Assembly (NCBI GenBank): GCA_900455155.1
Contig: UGUC01000004.1
Coordinates: forward strand, 248,001 to 312,000
Direction: 5' to 3'
Source: Providencia stuartii
Lineage (GTDB): Bacteria; Pseudomonadota; Gammaproteobacteria; Enterobacterales; Enterobacteriaceae
DNA length: 64,000 nucleotides
Shown here: positions 42,958-63,689 of the stretch, in pieces
Layout: every line of letters starts with the position of its first letter
How positions within the stretch are numbered: position 1 is the stretch's first letter
Program-made: the position numbers and the translations under genes
The notes under the pieces: model-generated
Seen by the model: the letters and a program-made list of their open reading frames with translations, nothing else
Databases searched by the model: none
What the model was told of the DNA's origin: nothing

Positions 42958-43042
42958 GCCGGAGTGGCGGAATTGGTAGACGCAGTTGATTCAAAATCAA
43001 CCGCCTTCGGGTGTGCCGGTTCGAGTCCGGCCTTCGGCACCA
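42958..43042 (+). tRNA. leuX: tRNA-Leu (anticodon CAA)
   Basis: 85-base tRNA including the encoded CCA. Acceptor GCCGGAG pairs with CTTCGGC up to one mismatch-type wobble, the anticodon stem-loop is GTTGA-TTCAAAA-TCAAC with anticodon CAA, the variable arm is long as in class II tRNAs, and the T-arm is CCGGTTCGAGTCCGG. It reads UUG codons. It matches E. coli leuX, a well-known integration site for P4-type islands; here too a P4-type integrase gene starts downstream. Confidence 0.97.
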
Positions 43043-43056
43043 CTAAAGTGAAAATT

Positions 43057-43080
43057 AAGACGCTCAAGGCGTCTTTTTTT
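43057..43080 (+). terminator. leuX terminator
   Basis: AAGACGC / GCGTCTT stem, five-base loop, seven T. A decayed copy of the same segment occurs at 62109. Confidence 0.9.
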
Positions 43081-43324
43081 ATGCCTAAATCTTAAGGTTA
43101 CAAGGCTTTCCTCGCATTTTTAGTCAATGAATGTCAATCCAGCCCAACCTGTATGTGAGTATATCTGTCGCTTCGATAATATTTATTATGCATTATTGAT
43201 GCATTGCTAATGATAGTACATGCAGGCGCATCCTGTAGCGTAGGCCCGTAGTTATCTATGTAACGCGAAATCATCTGAGATATCTCGTATATATACCCAG
43301 TCTGGGGGGAAGAGAACAAAGAAT

Positions 43325-43669
43325 ATGGCATTAACTGATACGAAAGTTCGTGCAGGTAAACCAGACGAAAAAGCTTACACACTGACAGACAGTGATGGCT
43401 TGTTTCTGTATATTCACCCCAATGGTTCTAAATACTGGCGTTTCCGTTTTCGCTTTGGCGGTAAACAACATTTGATGGCTTTTAGTGTATACCCTGAGAT
43501 CTCTTTAGCAGATGCCAGAGAAAGAAGGGATGCTGCCAGAAAGCAAGTTGCTTTAGGTATTTATCCACGCGAACACAAGAAAGAATTAAAGGAAGAGCAG
43601 CAAAAGGAATTCAATACCTTTGAGAAAGTTGCTCGTGATTGGCACGCGACCAATAAAAAGTGGTCATAA
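43325..43669 (+). pseudogene. P4-type integrase, N-terminal fragment
   Basis: The first 114 residues of a P4-like tyrosine integrase: MALTDTKVRAGKPDEKAYTL, then DGLFLYIHPNGSKYWRFRFR, the arm-type DNA-binding domain, and the start of the core domain (FEKVARDWHATNKKWS). It stops where an IS3-type element begins at about 43670, so the catalytic domain with the Arg-His-Arg-Tyr residues is missing. Position and orientation right after leuX fit an integrase that brought in the island. A second fragment of a close relative lies at 47443. Confidence 0.9.
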
Positions 43670-47014: not shown

Positions 47015-47274
47015 TTTTTTGCCATAGCTTCCTGAATGATCTCAGCTTTCAACCTTTCTTCTGCATACATTTTTTTGAGGCGGCGATTTTCCTCTTCCAG
47101 TTCTTTCAAGCGGGTCATCATGGAAGCATCCATCCCACCAAAGCGTGAGCGCCACTTATAAAAACTGGCGTTGCTCATACCATGTTCGCGGCACAGTTCA
47201 GAAACAGGCGTTCCCGCCTCAGCTTGCTTAAGGATGGTGATAATTTGGCTATCGGTAAAACGTGCTTTTTTCAT
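47008..47274 (-). CDS. IS3-family transposase OrfA
   Basis: 88-residue DNA-binding protein of the IS407-like subgroup. Helix-turn-helix [20 protein letters not shown] with [17 protein letters not shown], followed by a leucine-zipper-like region [20 protein letters not shown] and the common end [11 protein letters not shown]. Precedes orfB with a seven-base overlap. Confidence 0.92.
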
Positions 47275-47356
47275 AGAGATCTCCTCAGTTCAGATTACGA
47301 GAAAATTCTACTTATTAATACACCGATTTTTCGGGGGGATTACCGGATTACCATAG

Positions 47357-47382
47357 CTGTCTCATTTTAGGGGATGTGGACA
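47357..47382 (-). repeat. Solitary IS3-type left end, inverted
   Basis: CTGTCTCATTTTAGGGGATG, then TGGACA, is the complement of the left terminal repeat of the 56841 element (one or two mismatches). There is no matching transposase beside it; it is a second fossil of that IS family, just outside the intact IS. Confidence 0.65.
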
Positions 47383-47383
47383 A

Positions 47384-47640
47384 CGCGAAATCATCTGAGA
47401 TATCTCGTATATACCCACTCTGAGGTGAAGAGAACAAAGAATATGGTATTAACCGATACAAAAGTTCGTGCAGCTAAACCGGACGGGAAAGGTTATACAC
47501 TGACTTTGTTAGTCTTTATTCGTTCTAGTGAATTGTGCTTTGCCCGTTGGGATGAAATTGATTTTGATAATGCCAAGTAGACGATCCCCGTGAAACGTGA
47601 AGCGATAGGTGAGGTTAAGCACTCTCATTGCTTTATGATA
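47384..47640 (+). pseudogene. Second P4-type integrase remnant with internal deletion
   Basis: The leader from 47384 repeats the one before the integrase at 43325 (ACGCGAAATCATCTGAGAT onward). From ATG 47443 it reads MVLTDTKVRAAKPDGKGYTL, then jumps inside the catalytic domain (FIRSSELCFARWDEIDFDNA), meaning several hundred bases are deleted. It then hits TAG where Trp is expected (K-stop-TIPVKREAIGEVKHSH). So this is a decayed paralogue of the leuX integrase, evidence for successive island insertions at this site. Confidence 0.85.
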
Positions 47641-47654
47641 AATCGATCAAAACC

Positions 47655-47920
47655 GCTGTTGGCGGTGAAGGTTTTTATACTAACCTAGTTTAGAATGAGG
47701 TTATCTCAGCGACATTTAGCAGTGATGAAATCAAAGGAACCTAGGCCCCTTGGGCTTACATTGACTTATCTGTTGAAATCGCTGAGAAAGTAGCAAAAGA
47801 TCCAATTATAAATAAGTTGTCAAATAGAGAATTACTGGCGTTTATAGTAACTCTCTACATTATCCTTTCTAAAACTTACCATAATACTTCAGTTGACATT
47901 AATCATTATCATTTTTAGAG
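47655..47920 (+). pseudogene. Decayed reading frame of unknown family
   Basis: One frame reads SIKTAVGGEGFYTNLV, stop, NEVISATFSSDEIKGT, stop, APWAYIDLSVEIAEKVAKDP and on to NHYHF. Both stops are TAG and both fit a former Trp (TGG) codon by context. The polypeptide looks real but I do not recognise it. Confidence 0.4.
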
Positions 47921-48767
47921 TAATTTGTTTCCTATTTTATTTTTAAAGTTTATTATCAATTATAATCAATCTTTTTTTGATCAATATTGGTTTTTTATTT
48001 TTATTGCGGAAGAGGGAGAAGGTGAATTAATACGAGTAAATTCTATTATAATGTGTAAATAATACTGAGCTTTCAACCATTCATTTGTATTTCTTATGTG
48101 TCTGATTGTTTTTTGTGCTTTAAGATTGAGTTTGAAATTACAGGAGTAAATAACCAGTATTCTGTTGGGTAAATAATTTTTGGCTAATTATCTTAACGGT
48201 GGATGTTTAACTGTTTTTATTTTCAATAACGTGAAAAAATTATTAGATTTATAGAATTTCTGTATTGGTTAGTATTTTAAATTTTCTTAGTGGATAATGT
48301 TTTGGTCACGTTTTTTGATATTCTTATTGAAATAAAATTCTTGTTTTCTTTATTTTGTTTGTTGATCGTGTTTTTTAGTTTTACTTCAGCAATTTTTTTG
48401 TTTTTTTAATATATGCCTACTTTAGCTATTTATTGTAAGTTATTGTTTCTAAATTACATGTATTACATGTAATTTATTTATCGTATTATTCACCTAAATA
48501 TTTCTTTTTATTTTAAATTAAAATCTAACTTTATTTATATTATTAATTAATAAGGGATTTTTCTTTTGATCCCCTCTTATTTTAATCGAAAAAACCGATC
48601 GAAAACAAAAATACAATAGATTTCGACTATCAAAATTAGACAATTCGATCGAAAAAAACAATTTTTAACTCGAAAAATGATTCTATATTCTAATGTGAGT
48701 TGACGAATGTTTCTCTTATAAACAATACATAGAATAAATCCGCTAATAATAGTTAGAGAGGTTTAGA
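47921..48767. other. Long AT-rich gene-free region upstream of the fim regulator
   Basis: About 850 bases, extremely AT-rich, no coding sequence. Probably an H-NS-bound regulatory region for the type 1 fimbrial cluster. A cluster of TCGAAAA motifs lies at its downstream end (see next entry). Confidence 0.6.
48587..48690 (+). promoter_or_regulatory. Cluster of TCGAAAA motifs
   Basis: Within about 100 bases, TCGAAAA occurs four times (near 48587, 48599, 48658 and 48671) together with TTTCGA (near 48620); two copies lie in CGATCGAAAA. The repeats stand out in otherwise A/T-only sequence and lie 80-180 bases before the XRE regulator gene. Likely binding sites for that regulator or another factor. 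Function inferred. Confidence 0.4.
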
Positions 48768-49049
48768 ATGCGAGAGCGAAAATATGATTCGTTATCTAAT
48801 AATATTGGCAGAATGCTGAAGTCTTATCGTAGAAGAACCGGATTAACAGGCAGCGAATTAGCCAAAAAAATTAATGTAAGTCAGCAACAAATATCCCGTT
48901 ATGAAAATGGGATTAATAATATAACATTCGACAAATTAATTATACTTTTTAATGCGCTTGAAATGGATGGGGCAGATGTTGAAATGTTTTTCGAAAAAAT
49001 AAAGCGTTTTTTTGATTCTGATAAATATAAAAACACACGCAGAGAGTAA
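48768..49049 (+). CDS. MrpJ-like XRE-family fimbrial regulator
   Basis: 93-residue single-domain helix-turn-helix protein: SNNIGRMLKSYRRRTGLTGS, ELAKKINVSQQQISRYENGI, and a C-terminal helical tail. It resembles MrpJ and its paralogues in Proteus, which are encoded with fimbrial operons and repress motility genes when fimbriae are made. In mrp it is the last gene; here it is the first, 147 bases before fimA. A GAGAGG ribosome site precedes the ATG. It probably balances this operon against flagella or other fimbriae. Confidence 0.82.
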   Translation: MRERKYDSLSNNIGRMLKSYRRRTGLTGSELAKKINVSQQQISRYENGINNITFDKLIILFNALEMDGADVEMFFEKIKRFFDSDKYKNTRRE

Positions 49050-49195
49050 TAAGGCATGGCAGATATTTAAATTTAATTGAATTACAGTTTTGTAATTTAA
49101 TTAAATTCGAACATTTTAACTGTGTCTTTATTTAAATGGTACTAACCCTCCTCTATTGTCAAAGTTTTTGCAATAAATAAACATAAGGAAATTTT

Positions 49196-49744
49196 ATGAA
49201 AGTTAAATCACTAGCACTTGTTATTGTTTCGGCTCTATCTTTAAGTTCAGTTGCTGCTGTTGCAGAAACGACAACAGTTAATGGCGGTACTGTGCACTTT
49301 AAAGGTGAGTTGGTGAACGCAGCATGTGCTGTTGATGCTAACTCTGTAGAACAAACTGTACGTCTTGGCCAATTCCGTACTGCTAAGTTAGCACAAGCAG
49401 GTGACACCAGCTCTCCAGTTGGTTTCAACATTCAATTGAATGATTGTGATACCACTGTTGCAACGTCTGCAAAAGTCGCGTTTAGAGGCGTAGCCGCAAA
49501 TGCCGCTAACCCAACGGTTCTAGCTGTTGCGGGTTCAGCAGCAGGTTCTGCGACTAACGTTGGCATTCAAATTTTAGACTCCAAAAGCGTACCTCTAGAT
49601 CTTGATGGTGCAACATTTAGTAGTGCTATCACTTTGAATGATGGTAATAACGTTCTGCCATTCCAAGCACGTTACTATGCACTTGGTGCAACAACAGCAG
49701 GTATTGCGAATGCTGACGCAACATTTGCGGTTCAGTACGAGTAA
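49196..49744 (+). CDS. fimA: Type 1 fimbrial major subunit
   Basis: 182-residue pilin. A signal peptide ends AVA at about residue 23; the mature part has the Cys pair in NAACAVD and LNDCDT and ends FAVQYE. It is the shaft pilin of the fim-type operon 49196-55878 (fimA, I, C, D, F, G, H order). ACATAAGGAAATTTT precedes the ATG. Ala/Thr-rich and with different codon use from the surrounding AT-rich sequence, as usual for abundant pilins. The frame is intact. Confidence 0.92.
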
Positions 49745-49826
49745 TTATTGCGCGATGGATGAAGGGTGAAAAACCCAATAGGCCATGGACGGCTTTTTAT
49801 AAACAAAACTAAAAAGGTGAAAGCTC

Positions 49827-50364
49827 ATGAGAGGGCTGATACTTGCTCTACTACTTTTGGTTTCTCCGCTTATGGAAGCTGGAAATAAGTGGCAAGTCCA
49901 ACTTCCAGGCGGAGGAATGCGCTTTCAAGGGGAACTGATTGCTGAAGCTTGTAGTGTTGAAACTTCAGATAGAAGTTTGATCGTGAATATGGGGCAGTTG
50001 CGCACCAATATGCTCAATGCATCAGGCCAAGATACAGACCCCGTGATCTTTGATATTCATCTCCGAGAATGTAGCGCTGTTGCTAGTGAATACGTCTCAA
50101 TCACTTTTGCGGGTATTGCTAACGATAAAAACCCAGCGATCTTTTGCTATTGATAATGGACCTAATACGGCAACAGGTGTGGGACTGGCTATTTTTGACT
50201 CAAAAGATACGTTGATCCCAATAAATAGTTCACCACGAAAAATAGAGCGAGTCAGTAACGGTGATATGACTTTACATTTTGTCGCGAAGTATCGTGCGAC
50301 TAGCGACCAAATTACAGGCGGAAAAGCGGATGCTCAAGCACTGTTTTCGCTCACATATGAATGA
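49827..50364 (+). CDS. fimI: FimI-like minor pilin, one frameshift
   Basis: Pilin-like protein after fimA in the FimI place; FimI is thought to terminate or anchor the rod. A signal peptide ends near PLMEAG. The Cys pair is in AEACSVE and LRECSA. The frame breaks at T4 50142-50145; removing one T joins DKNPAIF to AIDNGPNTATGVGLAIFDSK and gives about 178 residues ending FSLTYE. Overlaps the next possible start codon at 50361. Confidence 0.8.
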
Positions 50365-50432
50365 ATAAAAAGATCAAAAAAATGTCTGCGCGTATTTTTA
50401 ATGTTTTTAGTAAAAGAAGGACAGATGTAACC

Positions 50433-51132
50433 ATGAGAACAGGAACAACTCGTAAACTAATTACTGCGTTATTTATATTACTCTGCTCAAGTATATCAAC
50501 TCAGGTATACGCAGGAGTTGCTTTGGGCGCTACGCGGGTTATTTACCCTGCAGGGGCAAAAACAGGTTCAACTTGCTGTCACCAATAATGATGAAAAGGG
50601 CGTTTTTCTTATCCAATCATGGGTAGAAAATGCTAACGGTCAAAAAGATAACCAATTTGCTATCACACCTCCGCTGTTTTCTATGCAAGGTAAAAAAGAA
50701 AATACCTTACGAATTATTGATGCAACCAATAATCAATTGCCTAAGGATAGAGAAAGCTTGTTTTGGTTAAATGTCAAAGCGATACCTGCTATGGATAAGT
50801 CAAAGCAAAATGAAAATACCCTGCAATTAGCGATTATCAGCCGTATCAAACTTTATTATCGTCCTACTGATTTGGCGATTGCGCCAGATAAAGTGGCTGA
50901 AGAATTACGTTTTAAGCGGCAAGCCGGAACACTGTTTGTCACTAATCCAACACCATATTTTGCCACGGTAGCTGAACTAAAAATCGGCTCGGTGAAGCTA
51001 GATAATGTGCTAGTACCGCCTTTCGGTGACGCGTCAGTAACCGTACCGGCTAATGCAAATGGTGAGATTACCTTCCAAACCATCAATGATTACGGCGCAT
51101 TAACCCCCAAAATGACGGGGCGTACTCTGTAA
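50433..51132 (+). CDS. fimC: FimC-like periplasmic chaperone, one frameshift
   Basis: PapD-family chaperone for the type 1 pilins. The ATG at 50433 gives a good signal peptide (ending TQVYA); ATG 50361, overlapping the fimI stop, would add 24 residues and cannot be excluded. The frame breaks at G4 50553-50556; removing one G joins VIYPAG to QKQVQLAVTNND. The core LPKDRESLFWLNVKAIP, AIISRIKLYYRP and C-terminal INDYGALTP are diagnostic. About 232 residues. The usher follows 90 bases downstream. Confidence 0.88.
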
Positions 51133-51222
51133 AAGCGGGTTTCTTACTTATAAAAAATAGCTAACTATCACTTTGAATTAAATAACTTACTGAGCGATTT
51201 AGCAGATCGGGTCGGAGGGAAC

Positions 51223-53859
51223 ATGTCATATCTGGCATCTGGAAAAGAGCCATTAATTTTGGAGAAGAAAACGTTTTTTGGCAATCTACCCGAGCGCCAT
51301 TTTCCCTTAATTCCATTGGCACTCTTTATTGGTGTCTGCCTATACCCTACTTGGGCTGAGGCAGAATTATACTTTAACCCACGCTTTTTGTCTGATGATC
51401 CTTCTGCTGTTGCTGACCTGTCTGCTTTTGAACAAGGTCAAGAAGTACCTGAAGGCACTTATCGTGTTGATGTGTATCTCAATGATGGATATTTATCGAT
51501 TCGAGATGTTCATTTTACTATCGATAAGAGTAGCAAAGAATTGTCGCCATGTTTAACGCTTGGTGAGTTAGCTAAAATGGGTGTGAAGACATTGGCCATT
51601 CCAAATGTCGAGACAATCTCTGAGGACACTTGTCAGCCTTTAAATACATTGATTGCTGATTCAACATCAAAATTTGATGTTGGCTTACAACGTTTATATA
51701 TCACTGTGCCTCAAGTGTATATGAGGGATAGAGCGCGAGACTTTATTCCTACTGAGTATTGGGACTCTGGTATTACTGCAGGTCTTTTAAATTATAGCCT
51801 CACGGGAAGTCGTGCACGTAACCAAAATGGTACTCATAGCAGCTATACCTACCTGAATTTACAGAGTGGATTAAACCTTGGGCCATGGCGCTTGCGCGAT
51901 AACTCCACATGGAGTCACAGTAGCGGTAAGACTAACAGTGAAACGCGTTGGGAGCATATCAATACTTATTTAGAGCGCGGTATCAATGAATTTCGCTCAC
52001 GCTTAACGGTAGGTGATAGTTACACACTTGGTGATATTTTCGACAGTTTTAACTTCCGTGGTATTCAATTAGCTTCCGACGATAATATGCTACCGGAAAG
52101 CGAAAAGGGTTTTGCGCCTGTGATCCGTGGTATTGCACGAGGCACTGCTGACGTTTCAATTAAACAAAATGGCTATGAAATTTACCGGAATACTTTTCCG
52201 CCAGGGCCTTTTGTTATTAATGATTTATATGCGGCAGGGAACAGTGGTGATCTCCAAGTTACCATTACAGAGGCGGATGGTTCAATACAAAGCTTCACGG
52301 TGCCTTATTCTTCGGTGCCTTTGCTACAGCGTGAAGGGCATACTAAATATGCGGTTACAGTAGGTGACTACCGTTCAGGAAATGGGCAACAAGAAAAGCC
52401 GACCTTTGTACAAGGTACCATAATGCGTGGTTTGTCATATGGTTGGACGCTATATGGTGGAACGCAACTTGCAAATCGCTACCAATCTTTCAACGCTGGT
52501 ATTGGTAAAAATATTGGTGTGTTTGGGGCATTATCCGTCGATATTACACAAGCTAATGCCAAGCTACCTGATGATAGTAATCATCAAGGACAATCTATTC
52601 GCTTCTTATATAACAAGTCACTGAATGAAACGGGAACAATTATTCAGTTAGCTGGTTATCGTTATTCAACTAAGGGTTATTACTCATTCGCGGATACCAC
52701 CTATAAACGAATGGATGGCTATAACCTTGCAACACAAGATGGTGTTATACAGGTTACGCCGAAATTCACCGACTACTACAACTTAGCCTATAACAAACGC
52801 GAAAAAATCCAATTAAGTTTGACTCAACAATTGGGTGAACAATCGACGTTATATGTGACGGGTAGTCACGAAACATATTGGAATACTAATAAATCAGATA
52901 AGCAATTACAGGTTGGTATCAATACGTTAATCGAAGGGATCAATTGGGGCTTAAGTTACAGCCTATCGAAAAACTCGTGGCAGGATGCCAACGACCAAAT
53001 GTTGGCCTTGAATGTAAATATTCCATTCAGTCATTGGCTGCGTTCGGATAGCCAATCTATCTGGCGTAATGCAAGTGCCAGCTATAACGCTTCACATGAT
53101 CTGAAAGGCCGAGTCACCAATACGGCTGGTATCTATGGAACATTATTGGATGACAATAATTTAAGTTATAGCGTGCAAACAGGTTATGCCGGGGGTGGGG
53201 AAGGAAACTCTTCTGCAACAGGCTATACCTCACTCAACTATCGCGGTACTTATGGTAATGCCAACGTGGGCTATAGCTATACCAATGACTTAAGCCAGAT
53301 GTATTACGGTTTAAGTGGAGGGATTTTAGCGCATGCTAATGGGGTCACGTTAAGCCAACCAATGAATGATACGGTGGTTTTAATTAAAGCGCCGGGTGCT
53401 GGGAATGTCAAAGTTGAAAACCAAACCGGTGTTACAACGGATTGGCGTGGTTATGCCGTTTTGCCCTATGCCTCTGATTACCGTGAAAACCGAGTCGCTC
53501 TTAATACCAATACATTAGCTAATAATGTTGATCTTGAAGATCCCGTCGTGAGTGTTGTACCGACTCGAGGTGCAGTAGTGCGTGCGGATTTCCATCCTAA
53601 AGTAGGTGTGAAAGTACTAATGACACTCATGAGACAGGGCAAACCTGTGCCATTTGGTGCAGTGGTAACCTCAAAAGGCAGTAATGGTGGCAGTATTGTT
53701 GCCGATGATGGACTGGTTTATCTAACAGGGTTGCCACTGGCAGGGCAATTGGTTGCTCGCTGGGGAGATAGCCCAGATGCACAATGCCAAGTCAACTACA
53801 CACTGCCTGAGCAAAGCCGGCAGGAAATACTCAGTAAGCATCGTGTAGAGTGCCTCTAA
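51223..53859 (+). CDS. fimD: Type 1 fimbrial usher
   Basis: Outer-membrane usher of 878 residues, intact. The signal peptide is long and ends near AEA; the mature N-terminus LYFNPRFLSDDPSAVADLSA is the chaperone-binding domain with its Cys pair (SPCLTL, EDTCQP). The barrel and plug follow (for example YTLGDIFDSFNFRGIQLASD), and the C-terminal domains end with QCQVNYTLPEQ and a final ECL. It forms the pore that polymerises Fim pilins. GGAGGGAAC precedes the ATG at 51223. Confidence 0.96.
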   Translation: MSYLASGKEPLILEKKTFFGNLPERHFPLIPLALFIGVCLYPTWAEAELYFNPRFLSDDPSAVADLSAFEQGQEVPEGTYRVDVYLNDGYLSIRDVHFTIDKSSKELSPCLTLGELAKMGVKTLAIPNVETISEDTCQPLNTLIADSTSKFDVGLQRLYITVPQVYMRDRARDFIPTEYWDSGITAGLLNYSLTGSRARNQNGTHSSYTYLNLQSGLNLGPWRLRDNSTWSHSSGKTNSETRWEHINTYLERGINEFRSRLTVGDSYTLGDIFDSFNFRGIQLASDDNMLPESEKGFAPVIRGIARGTADVSIKQNGYEIYRNTFPPGPFVINDLYAAGNSGDLQVTITEADGSIQSFTVPYSSVPLLQREGHTKYAVTVGDYRSGNGQQEKPTFVQGTIMRGLSYGWTLYGGTQLANRYQSFNAGIGKNIGVFGALSVDITQANAKLPDDSNHQGQSIRFLYNKSLNETGTIIQLAGYRYSTKGYYSFADTTYKRMDGYNLATQDGVIQVTPKFTDYYNLAYNKREKIQLSLTQQLGEQSTLYVTGSHETYWNTNKSDKQLQVGINTLIEGINWGLSYSLSKNSWQDANDQMLALNVNIPFSHWLRSDSQSIWRNASASYNASHDLKGRVTNTAGIYGTLLDDNNLSYSVQTGYAGGGEGNSSATGYTSLNYRGTYGNANVGYSYTNDLSQMYYGLSGGILAHANGVTLSQPMNDTVVLIKAPGAGNVKVENQTGVTTDWRGYAVLPYASDYRENRVALNTNTLANNVDLEDPVVSVVPTRGAVVRADFHPKVGVKVLMTLMRQGKPVPFGAVVTSKGSNGGSIVADDGLVYLTGLPLAGQLVARWGDSPDAQCQVNYTLPEQSRQEILSKHRVECL

Positions 53860-53869
53860 GGAGCAAAAA

Positions 53870-54406
53870 GTGTTTGATAAATTGAAGATTTTTTCTGCAA
53901 CCTTGCTGACGTCGATCATGTTTTCTGCAAGTGCTTATGCAGCGGATAGCACGATCACTATTAAAGGCAATGTCAAAGACAACACTTGTGCAGTCGCACC
54001 GGGTTCTCAGAATCAAGTCGTTGATCTGCTAAATAATGCCGTTAGACAACTATATGCCATCGGTGAAGTGACACCACTTGTGCCATTCCAAATTGAGCTT
54101 ACCCCTTGTGGGGCGTCAGTATTAGCCGTCAAGGTAGGATTTGTGGGCATCGCAGATGCAAACAATACGTCGTTATTGGCGTTAGAACCAGGAACTTCTA
54201 ATGCTTCAGGAGCAGGGATACAAATTTTAGATGGCAGTAGAACGCCATTGGTACTCAATGCCAATAGTAATCAAATTGCATGGACACCATTGGTTGCTGG
54301 GCGAAGTAATACCTTGCAATTTTATGCGCGATTGATGGCTTCTAATTTACCTATTGTTGCAGGTCATGTACGAGCGACAGCAACTTTCACGCTTGAATTT
54401 CAGTAA
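53870..54406 (+). CDS. fimF: Type 1 fimbrial minor subunit FimF-like
   Basis: 178-residue pilin-like adaptor. It starts with GTG at 53870 eleven bases after the usher stop, behind AAGGAGC. The signal peptide ends AYA; Cys pair in DNTCAVA and LTPCGA; C-terminal TFTLEFQ. It occupies the fimF position and should join FimG to the rod. Intact. Confidence 0.85.
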   Translation: MFDKLKIFSATLLTSIMFSASAYAADSTITIKGNVKDNTCAVAPGSQNQVVDLLNNAVRQLYAIGEVTPLVPFQIELTPCGASVLAVKVGFVGIADANNTSLLALEPGTSNASGAGIQILDGSRTPLVLNANSNQIAWTPLVAGRSNTLQFYARLMASNLPIVAGHVRATATFTLEFQ

Positions 54407-54418
54407 ACAGGGGATGCC

Positions 54419-54931
54419 ATGATTGATAATTATTGGAAGAGGATCATTGCACTACTATTGGGGGTGTTATCAAGCCAGATAACCTCAAGCTATGCGGCGG
54501 ATGCCACAGTCACCGTGAATGGTAGTGTGGTGGCAAAGCCTTGTACTGTAGCAACCACTACCGCCAATGTTGAATTGGGTGATCTATATACCCTCAATTT
54601 AATTTCTGCTGGCTCAGCCTCTGAATGGCATTCAATTTCATTGAATTTAGAGAATTGCCCGGTTGGTACATCAGCAGTGACGGCAACCTTTCAAGGGATC
54701 GCCGATACCACTGGCTATTATAAAAACCAAGGTACGGCAGGCAACATTCAGTTGCAATTGCAAAATAGTGCAGGAACAAATTTGAATAACGGTGCGCAGC
54801 AAAAATTACAGGTCAATGATTCTACCATGTCGACGAGTTTTCCATTAAGAGTCAGAGCATTAACAGTCAAAGGTGGTGCGACACAGGGAACTATCCAGGC
54901 AGTGATTGATGTCACTTACACTTATCAGTGA
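54419..54931 (+). CDS. fimG: Type 1 fimbrial minor subunit FimG-like
   Basis: 170-residue adaptor. A signal peptide ends SYAA; then DATVTVNGSVVAKPCTVAT with the first Cys and LENCPVG with the second; C-terminal IDVTYTYQ. In type 1 pili FimG donates its N-terminal strand to FimH. Spacing to fimF and fimH is about ten bases on each side, so all three are tightly co-translated. Intact. Confidence 0.88.
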   Translation: MIDNYWKRIIALLLGVLSSQITSSYAADATVTVNGSVVAKPCTVATTTANVELGDLYTLNLISAGSASEWHSISLNLENCPVGTSAVTATFQGIADTTGYYKNQGTAGNIQLQLQNSAGTNLNNGAQQKLQVNDSTMSTSFPLRVRALTVKGGATQGTIQAVIDVTYTYQ

Positions 54932-54939
54932 GTTAAACC

Positions 54940-55878
54940 ATGAATGTAAAAAAAATGATTAAATTATTTTTCGCTAATCTGATTATTTATTTAGCCAGTA
55001 TCTCTTCTGTGTATGCATTTACTTGTTATGACTCAACGGGGAATGTATTGGATAGTCTTTCGGGGACAGCGACTGCGAACGTTTATGTTAACCTTCAACC
55101 GAGTGTGCAAGCAGGACAAAACTTAGTGGTGGATTTGTCACGATCTATTTTTTGTCGCAACGATAGTCCTTTAACTCGTAGGGACTTGGTGAGTATGAGA
55201 CGAGGCTCCGCCTATGGTGGGGTATTGTCGAACTTTAATGGTTCATTACGCTATTATACGTCAAGCTATCCGTTTCCGTTGGTGTCACCGACTCATCAAC
55301 AGAATTTCCCTTCAGGGAATTATACACCTTGGAACACTCAGCTATATTTGACCCCTATTTCAGCGGCGGGGGGAGTGGTTATCAATAAAGGCACTCGTTT
55401 TGCGACATTGGTGATGTACCAAGTTGGCTCTGCTCTTGTTGGTGGCGGTAATGTGGAGACGGCGACCTTTACGTGGAATTTATATGCCAACAATAATGTA
55501 GTAGTACCTATTGGTGGTTGTGATGTTTCTTCGCGTAATGTGATCGTTAATCTGCCTGAATATCCTGCAACTGCACCAGTACCACTTTCTATTTATTGTG
55601 CACGAAATCAAAATATTTCTTATTACCTGACAGGTTCGACGGATACTAGCTCTTCCATATTTGCGAACACTTTTTCGGGAACTAATGCGGCAAAAGGCGT
55701 CGGGATCCAATTAGTGCGTAATGGAAACGCCATCCCAACTAACCAAAACGTGCAGTTGGGGGCTGTGGGAACATCTGCGGTGAGTTTAGGTTTGAGTGCA
55801 CGATATGCACGTACTACAGGGCAGGTGACGGCAGGGAAAGTACAATCAGTGATTGGTGTTACTTTTATCTATGATTAA
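54940..55878 (+). CDS. fimH: FimH-type tip adhesin with a changed binding loop
   Basis: 312 residues: signal peptide to about residue 26, a mature N-terminus beginning with Phe (FTCYDS), a lectin domain, then a pilin domain from GGCDVSSRNV to VTFIYD. Similarity to E. coli FimH is strong: ANVYVNL, GQNLVVDLS, RGSAYGGVLSNF, SYPFP, LYLTP. Mannose-pocket residues Phe1, the Asn-Asp pair in FCRNDSP, Asp54 (in RRD) and Gln133 (in MYQV) are kept. Tyr48 is Ser, Ile52 is Arg, and the loop holding Asn135, Tyr137 and Asp140 is replaced by a longer Gly-rich one (VGSALVGGGNVET). It may still bind mannose weakly or see another sugar. Confidence 0.95.
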   Translation: MNVKKMIKLFFANLIIYLASISSVYAFTCYDSTGNVLDSLSGTATANVYVNLQPSVQAGQNLVVDLSRSIFCRNDSPLTRRDLVSMRRGSAYGGVLSNFNGSLRYYTSSYPFPLVSPTHQQNFPSGNYTPWNTQLYLTPISAAGGVVINKGTRFATLVMYQVGSALVGGGNVETATFTWNLYANNNVVVPIGGCDVSSRNVIVNLPEYPATAPVPLSIYCARNQNISYYLTGSTDTSSSIFANTFSGTNAAKGVGIQLVRNGNAIPTNQNVQLGAVGTSAVSLGLSARYARTTGQVTAGKVQSVIGVTFIYD

Positions 55879-55886
55879 AGAGAGAG

Positions 55887-56075
55887 TCAAATGTCGCTAA
55901 ATTCAATCGCTGCATTTGACGAATTCAGCCTGTTATGTGATTTATGTGAGACAACGCGTACAGGCTGCAACGTATCTTTTAATAAGCTTTGAGTAACGAA
56001 TGTATTTAATAAACGCCCAAGTGAAGATAGATAGTGATGTGAAATAATCAGTAATTCGCGGTTGAGTCGTGCCAT
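55887..56075 (-). CDS. Short hypothetical frame downstream of fimH
   Basis: 62 codons on the minus strand, containing RELLIISHHYLSSLGRLLNT. It is directly downstream of the 56079 frame and separated from it by a stop and a frame change, so it may be the end of one longer broken gene. No family recognised; support is weak. Confidence 0.25.
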   Translation of the reverse strand: MARLNRELLIISHHYLSSLGRLLNTFVTQSLLKDTLQPVRVVSHKSHNRLNSSNAAIEFSDI

Positions 56076-56078
56076 TTG

Positions 56079-56297
56079 TTAAGGAAACATTTCTATAGGC
56101 ATGCCAACAGCCATCAAGCCTTGAGCGGAATATCTCATATCATGTAATGACTGAACAACTCGACTTATTTGTTTTTCAGCGAGTTGTTCTTTGTGCTGAG
56201 CGGCAGGGTATTTATTAAATTCATTGCTATCTGAACGTAGGTCGGTTCGGCTCAGGGCAAAGGTATTATCAGCAATTAATAATACGTTATTAATCAT
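56079..56297 (-). CDS. Hypothetical small protein, second of a pair
   Basis: 72 residues, starting with an ATG that overlaps the stop of the preceding frame by four bases (ATGA), a common sign of real operon structure. Content is polar and helical (EQLAEKQISRVVQSLHDMRY). Not recognised. Convergent with fimH. Could be a regulator or a toxin-antitoxin half, but nothing in the sequence proves it. Confidence 0.4.
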   Translation of the reverse strand: MINNVLLIADNTFALSRTDLRSDSNEFNKYPAAQHKEQLAEKQISRVVQSLHDMRYSAQGLMAVGMPIEMFP

Positions 56298-56527
56298 TTC
56301 ATTATCTCATGTATAAATGAAACCGAACCTTTAAAGTTTGATTTGCCTTTCTTCCAATAACCTTTAGTAAACAACAACTTTTTGGGAATATCAGTCTCAT
56401 TGATAAAGAGATCTTTTAGGTATGCAGCGACTTGTCGTTCATAAGTCAACCACACTTGCCCTTGTTTATCAGAGAGTCTGTAATGGCTGATGGCTTGCAC
56501 AAGTGAGCTATTCATTCCACATGTCAA
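56294..56527 (-). CDS. Hypothetical small protein, first of a pair
   Basis: 77 residues; an inner Met at 56515 (MNSSLVQAISHYRLSD) may be the real start. A basic C-terminal half (KGYWKKGKSNFKGS) suggests nucleic-acid contact. Overlaps the next gene by four bases. A symmetrical operator-like site (TAATGTGA-TACG-TCACATTA) lies upstream at 56601. No family recognised. Confidence 0.4.
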   Translation of the reverse strand: MTCGMNSSLVQAISHYRLSDKQGQVWLTYERQVAAYLKDLFINETDIPKKLLFTKGYWKKGKSNFKGSVSFIHEIMK

Positions 56528-56600
56528 AATGTCGGATGCGGATTTGCCAATTGCTTTTTAATAATGAGTAATCAATAAATTTATCCACATCATCACAGCA

Positions 56601-56620
56601 TAATGTGATACGTCACATTA
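56601..56620 (-). promoter_or_regulatory. Palindromic operator-like site
   Basis: TAATGTGATACGTCACATTA has perfect eight-base arms around a four-base centre. It looks like a CRP-type half-site pair but with a four-base instead of six-base spacer, so a different factor may bind. It lies about 75 bases upstream of the paired small genes at 56527. The rest of 56528-56840 is gene-free. Confidence 0.4.
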
Positions 56621-56840
56621 TTGGGATAATTTGTTGTATATCACGCACTCTTGCCTCTCGTTTGCTGTGAGCATCGCATTCCAACATAACATCAACTATT
56701 TTATTCAATGTGTTATGTATAATTTCCGCCTATTTACAGCAGCGAAAAAAGATACTGATTGATGATAAATGAAGCAGATGATAGGACAATATTGGGATCA
56801 ATCGCTTGGCAATCAGTTAAAACTATCAGTATTAGTGGAA

Positions 56841-58015
56841 TGTCCACTTCCCCTAAAATGAGACAGCTACAATTAGATTTTCTGCCTTAAAAATTGCAGA
56901 GGTCATGATGAAAAAAGTTCGTTTTACTGAGACTCAAATCGTTAATATCTTAAAACTCGCTGATTCAGGGATGAAAGTGGAAGATATTTGTCGCCAAAAT
57001 GGCGATCAGTAATATTACTTATTATAATGGTGGTATGGAAGCTAATGATGTTAAAAGATTAAAAGAGCTTGAAGAGGAAAATGCCAAGCTTAAAAAATAT
57101 TTGCAGAAGTCAGCCTTGAAAATCAGGCGATGAAGGAACTTTTTGCAAAAAAGGGTTGGTAGTGGCGGAAAAGAAGTCTTGTACTCAGACTTTAAAAGAG
57201 GCAGGTTTATCAGCCATTAAAGCTTGTAAATTAACATCATTACCTCGGGCAACATTTTATCGCCGACAGCTAAATTGGCGTGAAAGAGATCGTGCAGTGA
57301 TTGATGCTATTCAATCAGTTTTAGCTAAATCGCCACAATCAGGATTTTGGAAATGCTATTTTCGGCTAAGATTTCAAGGCTATCCCTTTAATCATAAACG
57401 AGTTTATCGCGTTTATTGCCGTTTAGGGTGAAACCTGAAACATCGAGTTAAAAAAATACTGCCGAAACGAGAAAAAAGCCCCTTAGTGATTGAAGAAGTC
57501 CCGAATGTTCAATGGGCATTGGATTTTGTACATGACAGTTTATATTGTGGTAAGCGTTTCAGAATATTGAATATTATTGATGAAGGAACACGTGAATGTT
57601 TGGCGATTGAAGTGGATACATCGTTGCAAGCTGAACGGGTTATTAGAGTGCTTGAACGCTTAAAAGTCGACAGAGGAGTGCCGAAACAAATACGCGTGGA
57701 TAATGGATCTGAGCTTATTTCAACCAACCTATTGAATTATTGTACAAATAATCAGATTGAGCTATGTCATATTCAACCCAGTAAGCCACAACAAAATGGC
57801 TTTATCGAACGTTTTAATGGCTCGTTCCGCCGTGAATTTCTAAATGCGAATTTTATTTGAGTCATTAAACCAAGTACGTGAAATAGTGTGGTATTGACAG
57901 CAAGAGTGTAACTAAAACCGAACGCACGAAAGTTTAAATCATCTCCCTTCGGAGACCTATCGTATATAGTTAGAAAACTCTAAGTTAAAGTGTCTCAATT
58001 AATGGGGAGTGGACA
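56841..58015 (+). mobile_element. IS3-family element with decayed transposase
   Basis: Terminal repeats TGTCCACTTCCCCTAAAATG (left) and the complement-like AATTAATGGGGAGTGGACA (right) bound 1175 bases. OrfA starts at 56907 (KKVRFTETQIVNILKLADSG) but is broken near DICRQNG and lacks a segment. OrfB (from 57162) has an in-frame TGA at 57429 where NLKHRV should continue, then VQWALDFVHDSLYCGKRF with the first Asp, QIRVDNGSELISTN with the second, and QQNGFIERFNGSFRREFLNA with the Glu, then a shift and more stops. A dead copy. Ends of the same element occur alone at 8096, 44586, 47357 and 62381. Confidence 0.88.
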
Positions 58016-58274
58016 CATGACTAATTGTTTTTTATGCTAAAATTAAAGATGAAAACTCACAACATCGTATGGTGAATCCAACCATTTTAATTGGGGGCCA
58101 GTACAGTATGTTATAAATTGGAGAGTAATTGGTTCAATACTTAGCACCAAAAAAGAACAATCTTTACTACATCCTGCAAAATAAAACGTCTGCTCCTCGC
58201 TCAGACCAGACTGTCAGGTTTAATAGTATTCTACAATAAACCCTGACAGTTCAAGTCTGAGCTAATATATAATG
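58016..58274. repeat. Spacer with a large nested inverted repeat
   Basis: No gene. GCTCAGAC (58199) pairs with GTCTGAGC (58262), and inside it CTGTCAGG-TTTA pairs with TAAACCCTGACAG, making a long interrupted stem of 64 bases just past the helicase gene stop. There is no T-run. It may be a terminator, or an element end. Confidence 0.55.
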
Positions 58275-61200
58275 TTACCGTCGTTCAAGGTTGTTGTGGA
58301 TAGCTTGAATTTCTTCTTTCAAACTTCCACCACAATAAACCATAGAGGTATCATATCGTTCATACTTGGCTTCACGAGATGCGCTAAACCAATTGAATGA
58401 GCCAATGCAGAGTAAATTATCATCTCCGATAACAATTTTACTATGAACTCGTCGCACTAGCTTTGTAGCAATACCATAAGAATCTAATTGTTCCAAGGCA
58501 TTATGAAGATTGACTTCTCTTTCTTTACGTTTTTCAGGATCAGAGTGTTGGATATTGTAATTTCTATCGGTGATCACTTTTACTTGGATACCCTTAGCTG
58601 TTGCTTGAGCCATGGAATCAATGAATCCAGCTTGTTCAAGTTTTTGCAAATTTAACCAAGGGGATATAATGGTAATATGTTTTTCAGTGTTACTAATTGT
58701 TTGATTTAAAAAGTCATCGTGCTCTTTCACACCGTGAAGCGTGTATATTTGAGTATTCGATTTTTGTAAGTCTTGCCTTTCTTTGTATTCGAAATGTAAG
58801 GCATTCCTTTCCTCTAAGAATAAGTATTTGGCAAGCAATCCCCTTGGTGAAGAAGGGGGTTGGATTTCAAATAAATCCATATCTCCAAAAACAAGAAAAC
58901 TATCCTTAGCGCGTGATACAGCAACATTCAGCATGCTGTTATCACTATCGATAAAACCGCCATCTTCATGTTTTGAATATACAGGGGAAAATATAACAAT
59001 CGCTCTTTCTGCGCCTTGAAGTGAGTGAACAGTACCGACAGTTAGTGTATTTTCACTAGTTTCAGCAGTAATTCCTTGTTTACTAAGAGCATCTTTAATA
59101 GTTGAAACTTGAGCACTGAATGGCGTTACTATTCCAACTATTTGCTGAATAGGTTTCCCATAGTGATTTTCGATACGTTGTCGATTTTCTATTAACCAAG
59201 CTGAAATGATTTCTGCTTCTAATCGATTGAAACGGCTTCCTGTATTTCTTTGCTCACCTTTTCCATCGATATGGAGATAGCCCATTGCAGGGAATAAAAG
59301 GTTGTCACTATCTCCTCTTTTTGGTAGTAATTTTCCTTGATAGCAAAGCTCATTACAGTACCCGATGATGTTATCAAAGCAGCGTCGATGCTCGTAAAGA
59401 TACATACCTCTCTCTAAATCAGAGTCATAATGGTAGCGTGAAGACAATTGTGCAATTTTCATTACACTGCCAGAAGCTGAACACTTTCCGAGTTCGGTGA
59501 TTGAGTCATATTCTGCATTGATTTGTTCTTGTGTATTTTCGCTCAGAATTTTTTCTTCCAACATGTTTCCGGAGTCAATGGCTCGAGTGATATTCCATAT
59601 TGGAGGTATTTGTGCAGTATCGCCAATAACAAGTGCTTTTTTAGCAAATGCGAAGGAGGCCGCAGCAACTTCAGGTAGTACTTGACCGGCCTCATCGACA
59701 ATGAGTAAATCAGCAATATTATATGCATAGCCTCTTTCATGCTTTTTTTGCCCTTTATTTGCGGGTAAAAGCATATAGTTAGGTAACATATAGCAAGTCA
59801 TTACCACACATGGCGTTAACATCATTTTACGTTGCCAGTGACGTTCTACTGTTTTAAGCCCGTTTTTTCCTTTCTCCTTGTTAAGATCATCAATATTGAG
59901 TACATCAATGAGCCAACGGCCTTCCCAATAATGAGTGGTTAGCAAAAATAGAGGAAATCTGATTTGTGTGTCAGCCAGTTCATCAATTTGCAACAAGTTT
60001 GGTTCTTCACCCTGTTTATATCCAAGTTCAGAAGCAATGGTGAGCCACTTTGCCAATATCTCTTTTTCTTGTTGGGTTATTTGATGTATATAATTAATTT
60101 GTTGTTGATAATCCTCTTGTTTTCGCTCTTCACTATCGAGCAATTTTTTAATTAAACTATCAATAACATTGATTTCAGTTGGTTCTTTTTCAATGTCGAA
60201 GCCATCTAATTTATCAGCAAGGAACAGCTTAACTTGGTAGTAACGCTTTTTTCCGACTGGTGGAAGCCATGAAAATAATGAAATAAATAGAGATTCATTC
60301 GCTCTATATTTATCCCATTCTACTGAAGCAATTTTTAACCTATCTATTTTAGATTGTGTTTTTGATAGTAATACGGTCTGGTCATTAAGATAAGAATTTA
60401 TATCATCGGATACTTGGGCGATTTTCCCTCGAATTTCTTGTAGAGAATCCCAAGTTTGCTTTATCTCAACTAACTTATTGGACTGCTCGGAGAGTTGTTC
60501 ATGCAATAACGCAATAATTTTTTCAGGGGATGAACAATCTTTATTGGGGAATGCCAATTTGGCTTTATTTAAATAAAAATCTAGTGCGCTTTCAATATAT
60601 TCTTTAGATTCTATTTCTTTAAAAAACTCGTCAGTCTGGTACTTTTTGATTGCTTCTGCTTTCTTGGTACTTGAAGGGAAATAAGCACCAAAACTTTTAA
60701 TATTTGGCAGCCAGCGACCTGACATAGCGCCATTTCCTTCGGAAAAGTCCTTTCCAAATGCTTCGATGATATTAGTGACGGCTTGGTTATTGGTTGAAGT
60801 CGCAAGTACAATTGGCGGATTTGTTTGTTCGAGCGCGGCTTTAGCCCAAAGCGTTGCAATAATGGATAAAAGTAAAGTCGTTTTTTCCTGTGCCAGGAGG
60901 GCCGTTGACTGCTAAAATATCGCCGTCATTGGCATTAAGAAAATGACCTAGTGCATCTCGCTGAGCCAGCGCTAAAGGAAACCTATCCCCAGAATGACCT
61001 AATCGATAAACAAAGGAATCTTCAGTTGAAATTAGTGGCTCGATTTCAGGAGAAGTGAAGTTAGCGAACCGCTCAAATAATGGGACTTTTTTCTTATTTA
61101 CAAGTAAGTGGTCATAAAGAGAAAGAATATGAGTACTAGCACCTTTAGGTTCTACTTTTTTTAGTATATATCCGTAATCGGCAAGTTCATACTGTTCGTG

Positions 61201-61785
61201 AGTGTTTATCCAAGATTCAGCGATACTATTTAATAGTTTATATGAATCATCTAAATATGACCCCCACCCTTGGAAATAGCCTTCATATCTTTTCTCTTTT
61301 TCTTCTTCAGTTTCTTCAGTTTCTAAATGAGATTCATCATAATGCATAGATGATGATGTATTCGTCGTTTTATATTTATCGTACTCAGATATTTCACCAA
61401 TAGAGAATGAACCATGAGACAGCGGTTCAAGTAGATCTCTAGGAATGACGGTAGTTGATGTTGGAAATAAAAAACCTTCTCGATTTATTTTTGCTAGTGT
61501 CACAAGCGGGGTGACATATGTTGGACTGCCAGCAAGGCGTTCTTTTCCATGTTGTATTAGCCGTATAAAAACTTTTGGGCGTAAAATGACATCTACTGTG
61601 TTTACATCATCTTTTTCATCGGAAAAAAAACGCTCAGTAATAATGCTATCAAGGCGACCTGATGAAACACTTTCCCATTTAATCAAATTATTCGTGTCTC
61701 GTTTTTCTAGAGCCCCTTTTCCTGACTCCGCATCAGCTAGTGAATTTCGCCAATAAGCGGCTAATTTTAGATAGTTATCATCCAT
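58275..61785 (-). CDS. SF1 helicase fused to a PLD nuclease, type II Mokosh-like, one frameshift
   Basis: Large protein of about 1169 residues once one base is removed from the six-T run at 60881-60886; the shift falls inside Walker A, so GPPGTGK continues as [12 protein letters not shown]. An N-terminal region of about 290 residues precedes the UPF1/DNA2-type helicase core: Walker A at about 295, [13 protein letters not shown] (motif II), [43 protein letters not shown] and [17 protein letters not shown]. The C-terminus is a phospholipase-D-type nuclease domain with one HKD motif (HSKIVIGDD) and GSFNW. A single-gene helicase-PLD architecture is that of the type II Mokosh antiphage system. Defence function is inferred from architecture and island location. 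Confidence 0.82.
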
Positions 61786-62096
61786 TTCCTGTCCTAAAAA
61801 TAATAATATTTAATTGACTATAATAAGATAAATTTATATATAGAGCGTTATTCTCCATACTCACAGGATAACTTCAATATAAAATTTAACTTGATTTTAA
61901 GTTTTGATAGGGGGTCTAGAGCGGTGTCGGTTATCTGATAACTTATAAGCATGTATTGTTCCACCTGCATCGCGATTACTTGTATTAGACAGCTATCAGA
62001 AAAAGTAAGAATTTCACCTGTTGGTATAAATAAATTTATACCTTCATATTTTAATTTAGATCACGAGGTTAAGTGTTATGTGCGAGTACTACCTCC

Positions 62097-62275
62097 GCTA
62101 AAGTGAAAATTAAGATACTAAAGGCGCCTTTTTTATGTCTGAAATCTTAAGTTTACAAGGCCTTCCTCATGTTTCAGTCAATCCATATCAATATAATCCA
62201 ATCCACACCATCTTTTTTGTGAGTATATCTGTTGTTCCGATAATGTTTATTACTCATTATTTAATAACTACACTC
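62097..62275 (+). repeat. Decayed copy of the leuX 3' flank (att-like)
   Basis: TAAAGTGAAAATTAAGA, the terminator region, AAATCTTAAG, TTACAAGG and GTGAGTATATCTGT occur in the same order and spacing as at 43044-43200 downstream of leuX. A degraded tRNA 3' end (GCGAGTACTACCTCCGC) precedes it at about 62080. So a second, older attachment-site junction lies here, 19 kb from leuX in direct orientation. Confidence 0.75.
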
Positions 62276-62380
62276 GTTCCAAAACTGCCTGCGCCCCTGT
62301 TTTCTGGTAAATCCACTTTGGCATAGTTAAAGGCTTCGTCATATTTGAAGTAGTGATTTTCACTATCTAGTTACTGGGGT

Positions 62381-62600
62381 TGTCCATTTCTCATTATTTG
62401 AGACAGGCCAACTTAGAATTTAACTAACTGATTCAAATAAATAGGTATTTAAACATTCACGATGAAACGGCTCATTGAATTGCTCGATAACGCTATTTCA
62501 CTGTGGCTTATTGGGTTAAATATGGTATAACTCAATTTGATCATTTTCGCAGTAGTTCAATAAATTAATTGAAATTAGCTCGGGGCTATTAGCCACGTGA
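62381..62600 (-). pseudogene. IS3-family OrfB remnant, reversed
   Basis: The plus strand starts with TGTCCATTTCTCATTATTTG, then AGACAG, a decayed right end of the 56841 IS. On the minus strand, coding reads ELISINLLNYCENDQIELYH, stop, NKPQ, stop, NSVIEQFNEPFHRECLNT, matching the OrfB segment around the second Asp and Glu of the 56841 element. Fossil of a reversed copy. Confidence 0.75.
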
Positions 62601-62846
62601 ATTTCTTGGACAATCCTCCTTGTATTGTACACTTTCGAACACATGTTCTTACATGTTATCTGGCTAATAGGGTGTCGATTTTAATTATGGGTATTTGAGT
62701 GAATAACGCTCAGTACCTTAGATGGTTATCACAATATAAGGTGTCATGCATAATATCTAATGCCTACTAGGTATCTGATATTTTTTCACATTGAGCTGAA
62801 CAATAAAAACAACTCTTATTGTTTGAAAACTTGTTCACGATGCCAA

Positions 62847-63689
62847 TTAATAAATATATCTTTTTGGGTATTCCATCGTATCTTTAGGCAAATAGATTAA
62901 TTTACCTGCAAAATTCCAGAATAACTTTTCTACCATCTGGTTACCATTAACCCCTTTAGAGACCAGTAATTTCATATTCTCATCAAGGCCGATAGCGCCC
63001 ATATCAAAAGCGGAATGATGCAGTGAACATAAAGCAATCCCATTATTAATCGTGCATGGACCACCAAACTGTTTCCACTTAATATGAGCGGCTTCTAAAC
63101 CAACAACAGCACTATCATAACGTAAATTGTAACCGCATATAGCACATTGATAATTGTAAGCTCGTAAAATATTTTGCCTAAACGCGGGGTCTCGGGCCTT
63201 GCGGATTTCATGGAGTGGAAAGTCGAGACGGCTAGCGATAATATCTTGTACATTTTCAGGAAAATGCTCATTTAAAATCTGTTGGGCTAACTTATCTATC
63301 AAAGTAGGCCTTTTTAGAAGAAGTTGGTAGCTTTCTTCATTAAACCCGCCAAATATATTTTGCTGAATTAACTCATTTTTAGATGGCTGCTTATTCCCTT
63401 TTTTCAGTTCGTATTCTTCTGTATTTTGTAAATCCCAAAAACCATCCCGTTTTAATCGCCAAAAAGGCATATTTGGATAGTGTTCTCGGCGATATGGGCC
63501 AAAACTAATAAGCAATTCTAATAGCTGTTGGTGAATTTCATTTCCATAATTAAATAGACGGGGATGCCCCTTTCGATATTCTGAAAGTACCAATAAAAGC
63601 AATAGCGGCTTATGAGGGGCTCTTTGATCGCCTTTACGCCATATCGTCAAGTTAGAAATATCATTCTGTAGCGCACTGGAAGTATACAT
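62847..63689 (-). CDS. HNH restriction endonuclease, phosphorothioate-DNA-dependent family
   Basis: 280-residue type IV restriction-like enzyme. The N-terminal part (about 1-165) has the sulfur-binding-domain signature of ScoMcrA-type proteins: WRKGDQRAPHKPLLLLLVLS (about 18-37) and FGPYRREHYPNMPFWRLKRD. The C-terminal HNH nuclease has CAICGYNL, LEAAHIKWKQFGGPCTINNG and CSLHHSAFD, with paired zinc cysteines and catalytic His. Related enzymes cut DNA carrying Dnd-type phosphorothioate modification, so the host should lack such modification, and no dnd genes are in the window. Frame intact. It is 1 kb from the helicase-PLD gene, forming a small defence cluster. Confidence 0.85.
   Translation of the reverse strand: MYTSSALQNDISNLTIWRKGDQRAPHKPLLLLLVLSEYRKGHPRLFNYGNEIHQQLLELLISFGPYRREHYPNMPFWRLKRDGFWDLQNTEEYELKKGNKQPSKNELIQQNIFGGFNEESYQLLLKRPTLIDKLAQQILNEHFPENVQDIIASRLDFPLHEIRKARDPAFRQNILRAYNYQCAICGYNLRYDSAVVGLEAAHIKWKQFGGPCTINNGIALCSLHHSAFDMGAIGLDENMKLLVSKGVNGNQMVEKLFWNFAGKLIYLPKDTMEYPKRYIY

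Follow-up and report, generated by a model that had tools for sequence, protein, structure and literature searches.

Do two neighbouring defence genes at the end of a genomic island work as one system, or did each arrive on its own? We address this question in a stretch of 64,000 nucleotides from Providencia stuartii (contig UGUC01000004.1, positions 248,001 to 312,000; the window, hereafter, means this whole stretch), in which both genes lie on the minus strand: mkoC, a helicase-nuclease gene of the type II Mokosh kind that is assembled in two pieces (58275..60725 and 60841..61785), and a gene for a phosphorothioate (PT)-dependent HNH nuclease (62847..63689). A preliminary description had presented them as joint cargo. 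We favour, with a probability of roughly 0.8, the reading that these are two independently acting known defence genes gathered by separate integrations at a known enterobacterial defence hotspot, the frameshift in mkoC being an artefact. The window would then take in the far end of a genomic island at leuX (tRNA-Leu-CAA), with the two genes lodged there. Both genes add a member to an already known kind, the site is likewise of a familiar sort, and the E-values of the family matches exclude chance.

Two defence genes of known families

Type II Mokosh is defined by an SF1 helicase and a PLD nuclease encoded in one gene. The PADLOC MkoC profile (PDLC03924) matches the open reading frame (ORF) 58275-60725 (-) over positions 332-1135 of 1136 (1084.6 bits) and the ORF 60841-61785 (-) over positions 1-279 (286.6 bits), together a full-length match spread over two frames. 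The C-terminal piece carries the SF1 helicase motifs and a C-terminal PLD/HKD nuclease domain, recognised by Pfam as AAA_12 and PLDc_2, with the HKD signature at 58392..58445 (-). These motifs are invariant across 21 aligned relatives, as are the residues H1114, K1116, D1121, S1129 and N1131. The type II Mokosh architecture proposed earlier is thus borne out by the full-length match to an SF1 helicase with a PLD nuclease. The wording "a single protein" fares less well: the match is to one helicase-PLD gene, but the assembly does not hold it in one open frame, and the earlier reader evidently read across the break. In the structure predicted for an intact MkoC homologue (mean pLDDT 56.1, pTM 0.37), the helicase appears to contain a long helical insertion, and the PLD end appears to be better ordered.

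The product of mkoC would combine in one chain an SF1 helicase resembling Upf1 and Dna2 with a nuclease of the PLD family. A PLD-like domain is listed for both Mokosh I and II (PMC10952713, in excerpt) and the mechanism is listed as unknown in a review (PMC12926258, in excerpt). The helicase may load on some nucleic-acid feature of phage infection, finding or remodelling phage nucleic acid, which the PLD domain would cut. Could the protein instead be a host enzyme of RNA or DNA metabolism? Its relatives of solved structure, found by sequence with the intact homologue, are DNA2, an RNA-helicase-like protein (8ftm and others), Upf1, SMUBP-2 and Sen1, and they speak for such a role, but the distribution of mkoC is patchy (17 of 394 genomes of the order; full length in only 2 of 24 Providencia genomes, this one included), it lies in an island, and it matches the MkoC profile over its full length. 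We consider a housekeeping role highly improbable.

The second gene encodes a protein of 280 residues that scores 432.7 bits (cut-off 180) with NF045808, the family PT-DNA_restrict of phosphorothioated DNA-binding restriction endonucleases. It has a sulfur-binding domain (SBD; about 63180-63635), residues 20-170 of the protein matching that of ScoMcrA (5zmm; whole-sequence E 8.2e-09), followed by an HNH domain (about 62982-63146), where HNH_2 at residues 182-236 is the sole Pfam match at E 0.01. Neither the Pfam scan at this threshold nor the comparison with ScoMcrA revealed an SRA domain. The protein also has the residues reported to be conserved in relatives of EcoWI (KPzzLL and PF-L-W; PMC7461809, in excerpt), in the forms KPLLLL and PFW-L-W. 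The earlier label "ScoMcrA-type sulfur-binding HNH" was therefore right about the PT-dependent SBD-HNH nuclease and less apt in its namesake: as no SRA domain was found beside the SBD and the HNH domain, "EcoWI-type" is the better name. EcoWI is known to cleave close to GpsAAC/GpsTTC and, in vivo, to restrict dnd+ plasmids (PMC7461809, in excerpt). By analogy, the Providencia protein would be a type IV enzyme whose SBD reads phosphorothioate in incoming DNA and whose HNH domain cuts nearby.

At strict E-values, mkoC had 47 matches in a plasmid collection and the HNH protein had 11; in a phage collection mkoC had two matches, both partial.

The reading frame of mkoC is broken at the Walker A motif in the assembly

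The two pieces of mkoC meet, by three-frame translation, at the Walker A codons (GPPGTGK, 60883..60903, minus strand). Read from stop to stop, the C-terminal frame has 878 open codons (it is open from about 60911) and covers profile positions 279-1135, and hence a single frameshift separates the pieces; of the other two frames at the break, only one continues the MkoC protein. Programmed frameshifting at this motif was considered and set aside: GPPGTGKTT lies in one frame in all 21 aligned relatives, and an assembly error is simpler.

To place the break in context, we compared the proteins of a relative (G021) with the contig that carries the window (63 reference ORFs) and dropped ORFs without a match of 80% coverage (15 here and 22 in a control genome). 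Core proteins were split over frames in 12 of 48 cases in this genome and in 0 of 41 in the control (Fisher p 0.0003). Moreover, the sole match over the cut-off to valS in the genome (ORF 32576-35107) is itself interrupted, and the stated completeness of the genome is 94%, against 96-100% in 23 relatives. Because many core genes are split, valS is interrupted and completeness is lower than in the relatives, a sequencing or assembly error appears to be the likeliest cause of the mkoC frameshift. That mkoC is instead a genuine pseudogene in this strain, leaving the HNH nuclease alone functional, would fit the broken frame and the degraded copies or relics found elsewhere (a 39-residue relic in another Providencia, G016, the copy in Escherichia coli MG1655 and two Xenorhabdus loci). 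We judge it unlikely given how often other core proteins are split here, the state of valS, and the remainder of the gene, whose 816 C-terminal residues are open and 96% identical to those of the intact gene of Providencia sp. UBA10704.

Many ordinary genes are split by small indels in this assembly, which makes pseudogene calls from a single genome unsafe; its frame breaks are not to be taken for pseudogenes.

Probable separate integrations at the leuX site

The left border of the island is the leuX site: an ORF matching annotated lptG is followed by the tRNA-Leu(CAA) gene leuX (42958..43042, plus strand; identified by ARAGORN), which serves as attachment site and anchors the island on its left, and then by the N-terminal fragment of a leuX-type tyrosine integrase (43325..43669, plus strand). 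The protein encoded by this fragment is up to 96% identical to ORFs beside leuX in other Providencia, and an integrase annotated by NCBI in a further locus (L167) matches it at 71%. The window thus has the leuX anchor near lptG, the leuX-type integrase (as a fragment) and a duplicated attachment site that characterise the hotspot, the right border uxuR lying outside this comparison. In E. coli, leuX is defence hotspot 37 (PMC12707154, in excerpt), and the Providencia locus can therefore be placed at the same site.

Between the two defence genes lies the relic of an attachment site with a copy of the leuX 3' flank (62077..62261, plus strand, from the repeats): 62095-62168 (82%) and 62188-62261 (77%) repeat 43040-43113 and 43124-43197. 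The attachment core that should precede the flank copy looks decayed. The relic is followed by that of an IS3-family transposase (62444..62620, minus strand; tblastn, 59% over 59 residues). Two other Providencia genomes separate the genes altogether, each carrying one of them at the same island, about 20 kb from leuX. G017 has mkoC and no match to the HNH gene; homology to its mkoC element extends over 58185-62098 (95%) and ends where G017 has an attachment core. G022 has the HNH gene (80% identical) and no match to mkoC, and it has an attachment core on the leuX side of that gene. Full-length PT-dependent HNH genes occur, like full-length mkoC, in 2 of the 24 Providencia genomes, the present one included.

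These observations do not support the claim of joint cargo, the attachment-site and IS3 relics lying between genes that occur singly in relatives, and the attachment relic and the separate occurrence also rule out an operon. The two genes are not a conserved, co-inherited pair in one orientation. We propose that one leuX element has mkoC as its terminal cargo and that the HNH gene lies beyond the decayed right attachment site of that element, so that the genes would have been brought or trapped by separate integrations. In supporting use only, attachment cores number 25 in the 857,730 bases examined near mkoC and PT-dependent HNH genes and 2 in a plain shuffle, which is a weak control, several of the 25 being intact leuX genes. 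To the right of the HNH gene and a penicillin-acylase-like ORF lie ORFs with relatives beyond the leuX region in three other Providencia genomes (G021, G011 and G023).

Other mobile remnants surround these genes. A second IS3-family transposase relic (57156..57860, plus strand; NF033516) lies on the other side of mkoC and is inverted with respect to the one at 62444; the parts 57685-57864 and 62429-62607, in inverted orientation and with 74% DNA identity, flank mkoC on both sides. Farther towards leuX, two IS3-family copies (within window positions 46187-57860) enclose a chaperone-usher fimbrial operon (about 49196-55878), with inverted ends at 47354-47382 and 56841-56869 that are 97% complementary; the copies may therefore have moved the operon.

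Recurrence of the neighbourhood in other genomes

Do the two genes also meet elsewhere? E. coli has MkoC homologues, some annotated as helicase YjhR. An Enterobacter mkoC query matched 2282 of 5426 E. coli genomes, with at least 80% coverage in 829, and an E. coli PT-dependent HNH query matched 4922, with such coverage in 1889. The full genes are side by side in five of the 5426 (at least 80% of the joined query), and the same five top the list of mkoC matches. In one of them, N1420, yjhR and the PT-dependent HNH gene are annotated as intact, are convergent and about 0.3 kb apart, and are followed by an HNH ORF and nanS; the pair stands at the end of an island that opens with a relative of the integrases found at leuX. 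In MG1655, the pseudogene yjhR matches mkoC residues 757-1169 at the far end of the leuX island, and a relic of the PT-dependent HNH gene (L163:42249-42535; residues 8-96 of the E. coli protein) lies between yjhR and nanS, without an annotated feature.

We had considered yjhR as the orthologue of mkoC and withdrew this, since an E. coli mkoC located at tRNA-Phe resembles the Providencia protein more closely (66% identity vs 57% for yjhR of N1420); we call yjhR a homologue. The direct comparison still ties the K-12 pseudogene yjhR to type II Mokosh. A literature search found no paper joining yjhR to Mokosh, nor yjhR with leuX, and neither "Mokosh" nor "yjhR" occurs in the main text of an article on E. 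coli defence islands (PMC10121019). The addition is modest, for the link follows directly from a PADLOC scan, which gives MkoC profile matches in the control genome of E. coli. Mokosh itself has been reported in P. stuartii (18 systems, 6.12%; PMC12935923, in excerpt) and its type II in Salmonella Typhimurium (PMC11305592, in excerpt).

Beyond E. coli, Pectobacterium polonicum has mkoC, truncated there at the end of the contig, convergent with a neighbouring PT-dependent HNH gene. In Enterobacter asburiae, the gene convergent with mkoC (L035:12540-13487) joins an SBD to a divergent HNH-type end and is 33% identical overall. NF045808 gives 459.5 bits in P. polonicum, 436.8 in N1420 and 154.8 in E. 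asburiae, the last below the cut-off of 180. We counted families among the 120 nearest neighbours of mkoC in 33 loci, taking up to two ORFs per side within 3 kb and dropping ORFs of less than 110 or more than 900 amino acids. Of an initial 25 loci, L043, L046 and L047 were omitted (mkoC partial) and L045, also partial, was retained; from the sample of the order, L149, L150 and L162 were omitted as duplicates and L152, L159, L160 and L161 although they are not duplicates (tblastn found no PT-dependent HNH gene in these four); N1420 and L084, from the E. coli mkoC search, were added by hand. NF045808 occurs in 3 of the 33 loci and ties with TssD as the most frequent NCBIfam family. With PADLOC models, PDC-S02 (a candidate family) and two HNH models likewise number three, Septu and type I methyltransferases two.

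The leuX site recurs in these searches as well: tRNA-Leu(CAA) is in the examined flanks of 5 of 25 mkoC loci, and about 2 kb from leuX lie both a full PT-dependent HNH gene in another E. coli record and a partial one in Proteus mirabilis (residues 1-203, 80%). The P. mirabilis record NZ_OL790811.1 (L166), filed as a plasmid, is evidently a chromosome, being 4.08 Mb long with lptG-like and leuX genes.

Thus, mkoC and PT-dependent nucleases adjoin each other more than once, and one may ask whether they form a functional pair, e.g., a two-armed system or one that protects the leuX site from Dnd-carrying islands sharing the hotspot. Apart from the adjacent genes in five E. coli genomes and the paired relics in MG1655, this idea can draw on the neighbour count (as many loci as any other NCBIfam family, in a tie with TssD, one of the three below the cut-off), on an SBD piece beside mkoC in L151, on the co-occurrence across the order described below, and on Dnd being among the systems of hotspot 37, at 2% (PMC12707154, in excerpt). 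Yet 3 of 33 loci are a minority, each gene stands alone in G017 and G022, and orientation varies, tandem in this Providencia and convergent in N1420, P. polonicum and E. asburiae. A functional pair seems improbable to us, and mkoC and the HNH gene probably act independently.

Association across the order and the dnd genes

Among the 394 genomes of the order, 17 have mkoC, 18 a PT-dependent HNH gene and 5 both, the present genome included. Leaving it out, both occur in 4 of 393 (Fisher p 0.003, no kinship correction). Three of these four come from one family, with at least 300 kb between the genes (in two of them mkoC is degraded or partial); in the fourth, the distance is 22 kb. Since three of the four are of one family with such distant genes, the association seems to reflect shared hotspots and defence-rich lineages more than a conserved pair.

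The preliminary description also held that the genome should lack dnd genes. We found no match to DndC (TIGR03183) at E 0.001 in this genome, which is 94% complete and rich in frame breaks, and DndB, DndD, DndE and the Ssp proteins were not searched. A PT-dependent nuclease would be compatible with such a host. DndC occurs in 21 of the 394 genomes. A strict mutual exclusion of PT-dependent HNH genes and dnd is not supported in this sample, because 2 of the 18 genomes with the nuclease hold dndC about 4.5 kb away. In a published survey, dnd clusters are near fewer than 3.6% of such enzymes (PMC7461809, in excerpt). In both genomes (L142 in G160 and L143 in G201), the PT-dependent SBD-HNH gene is divergent, and the dndC nearby has an unusually long frame, of 624-626 codons. 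The nuclease is possibly tolerant of its own host's marks.

In a broader version of the pair, the combination of type II Mokosh with an EcoWI-type nuclease would recur, under selection, at the leuX hotspot of Enterobacterales. The PT nuclease, frequently located close to an island end, would keep out Dnd-marked DNA, among it Dnd islands that compete for this attachment site, and MkoC would deal with unmarked phages. We regard this as quite unlikely. If it were true, E. coli K-12 would carry the fossil of the pair, in yjhR and the unannotated SBD-HNH relic before nanS.

Several observations weigh against the reading that we favour, of two independent genes brought together by separate integrations with an artefactual break. 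The break falls precisely within Walker A, a place where a true loss-of-function mutation would be effective as well. In a few other genera the two genes lie close to each other, which speaks for joint cargo and makes some functional link possible. Two of the 18 nuclease genomes have dndC nearby, as described above. Finally, the greater closeness of the E. coli mkoC at tRNA-Phe means that leuX is not the sole home of mkoC.

Comparison with known systems

The locus resembles the type II Mokosh loci of E. coli N1420 and MG1655 in that mkoC, like yjhR, stands at the distal end of a leuX island. It differs in the broken frame of mkoC in the Providencia assembly and in the orientation of the gene relative to leuX, which is opposite to that of yjhR in both strains; YjhR of N1420 is 57% identical to the intact Providencia homologue. 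Beyond the HNH gene there is the penicillin-acylase-like ORF (by our reading of the sequence), where N1420 has an HNH ORF and nanS. With hotspot 37 (PMC12707154, in excerpt), the island shares the leuX anchor near lptG, the leuX-type integrase and variable defence cargo; unlike it, it carries a fimbrial operon.

The HNH protein shares its SBD with ScoMcrA, which has the order SBD-SRA-HNH (PMC7461809, in excerpt) and is about twice as long (561 residues in the 5zmm chain vs 280). Where the phmmer alignment places the pocket tyrosine of ScoMcrA (published as Y164), the Providencia protein has a methionine. It is about 58% identical to the enzyme of E. coli N1420, and it has the organisation of EcoWI-type enzymes, an SBD followed by an HNH domain with no SRA domain found, a likeness judged by the residues reported for these enzymes.

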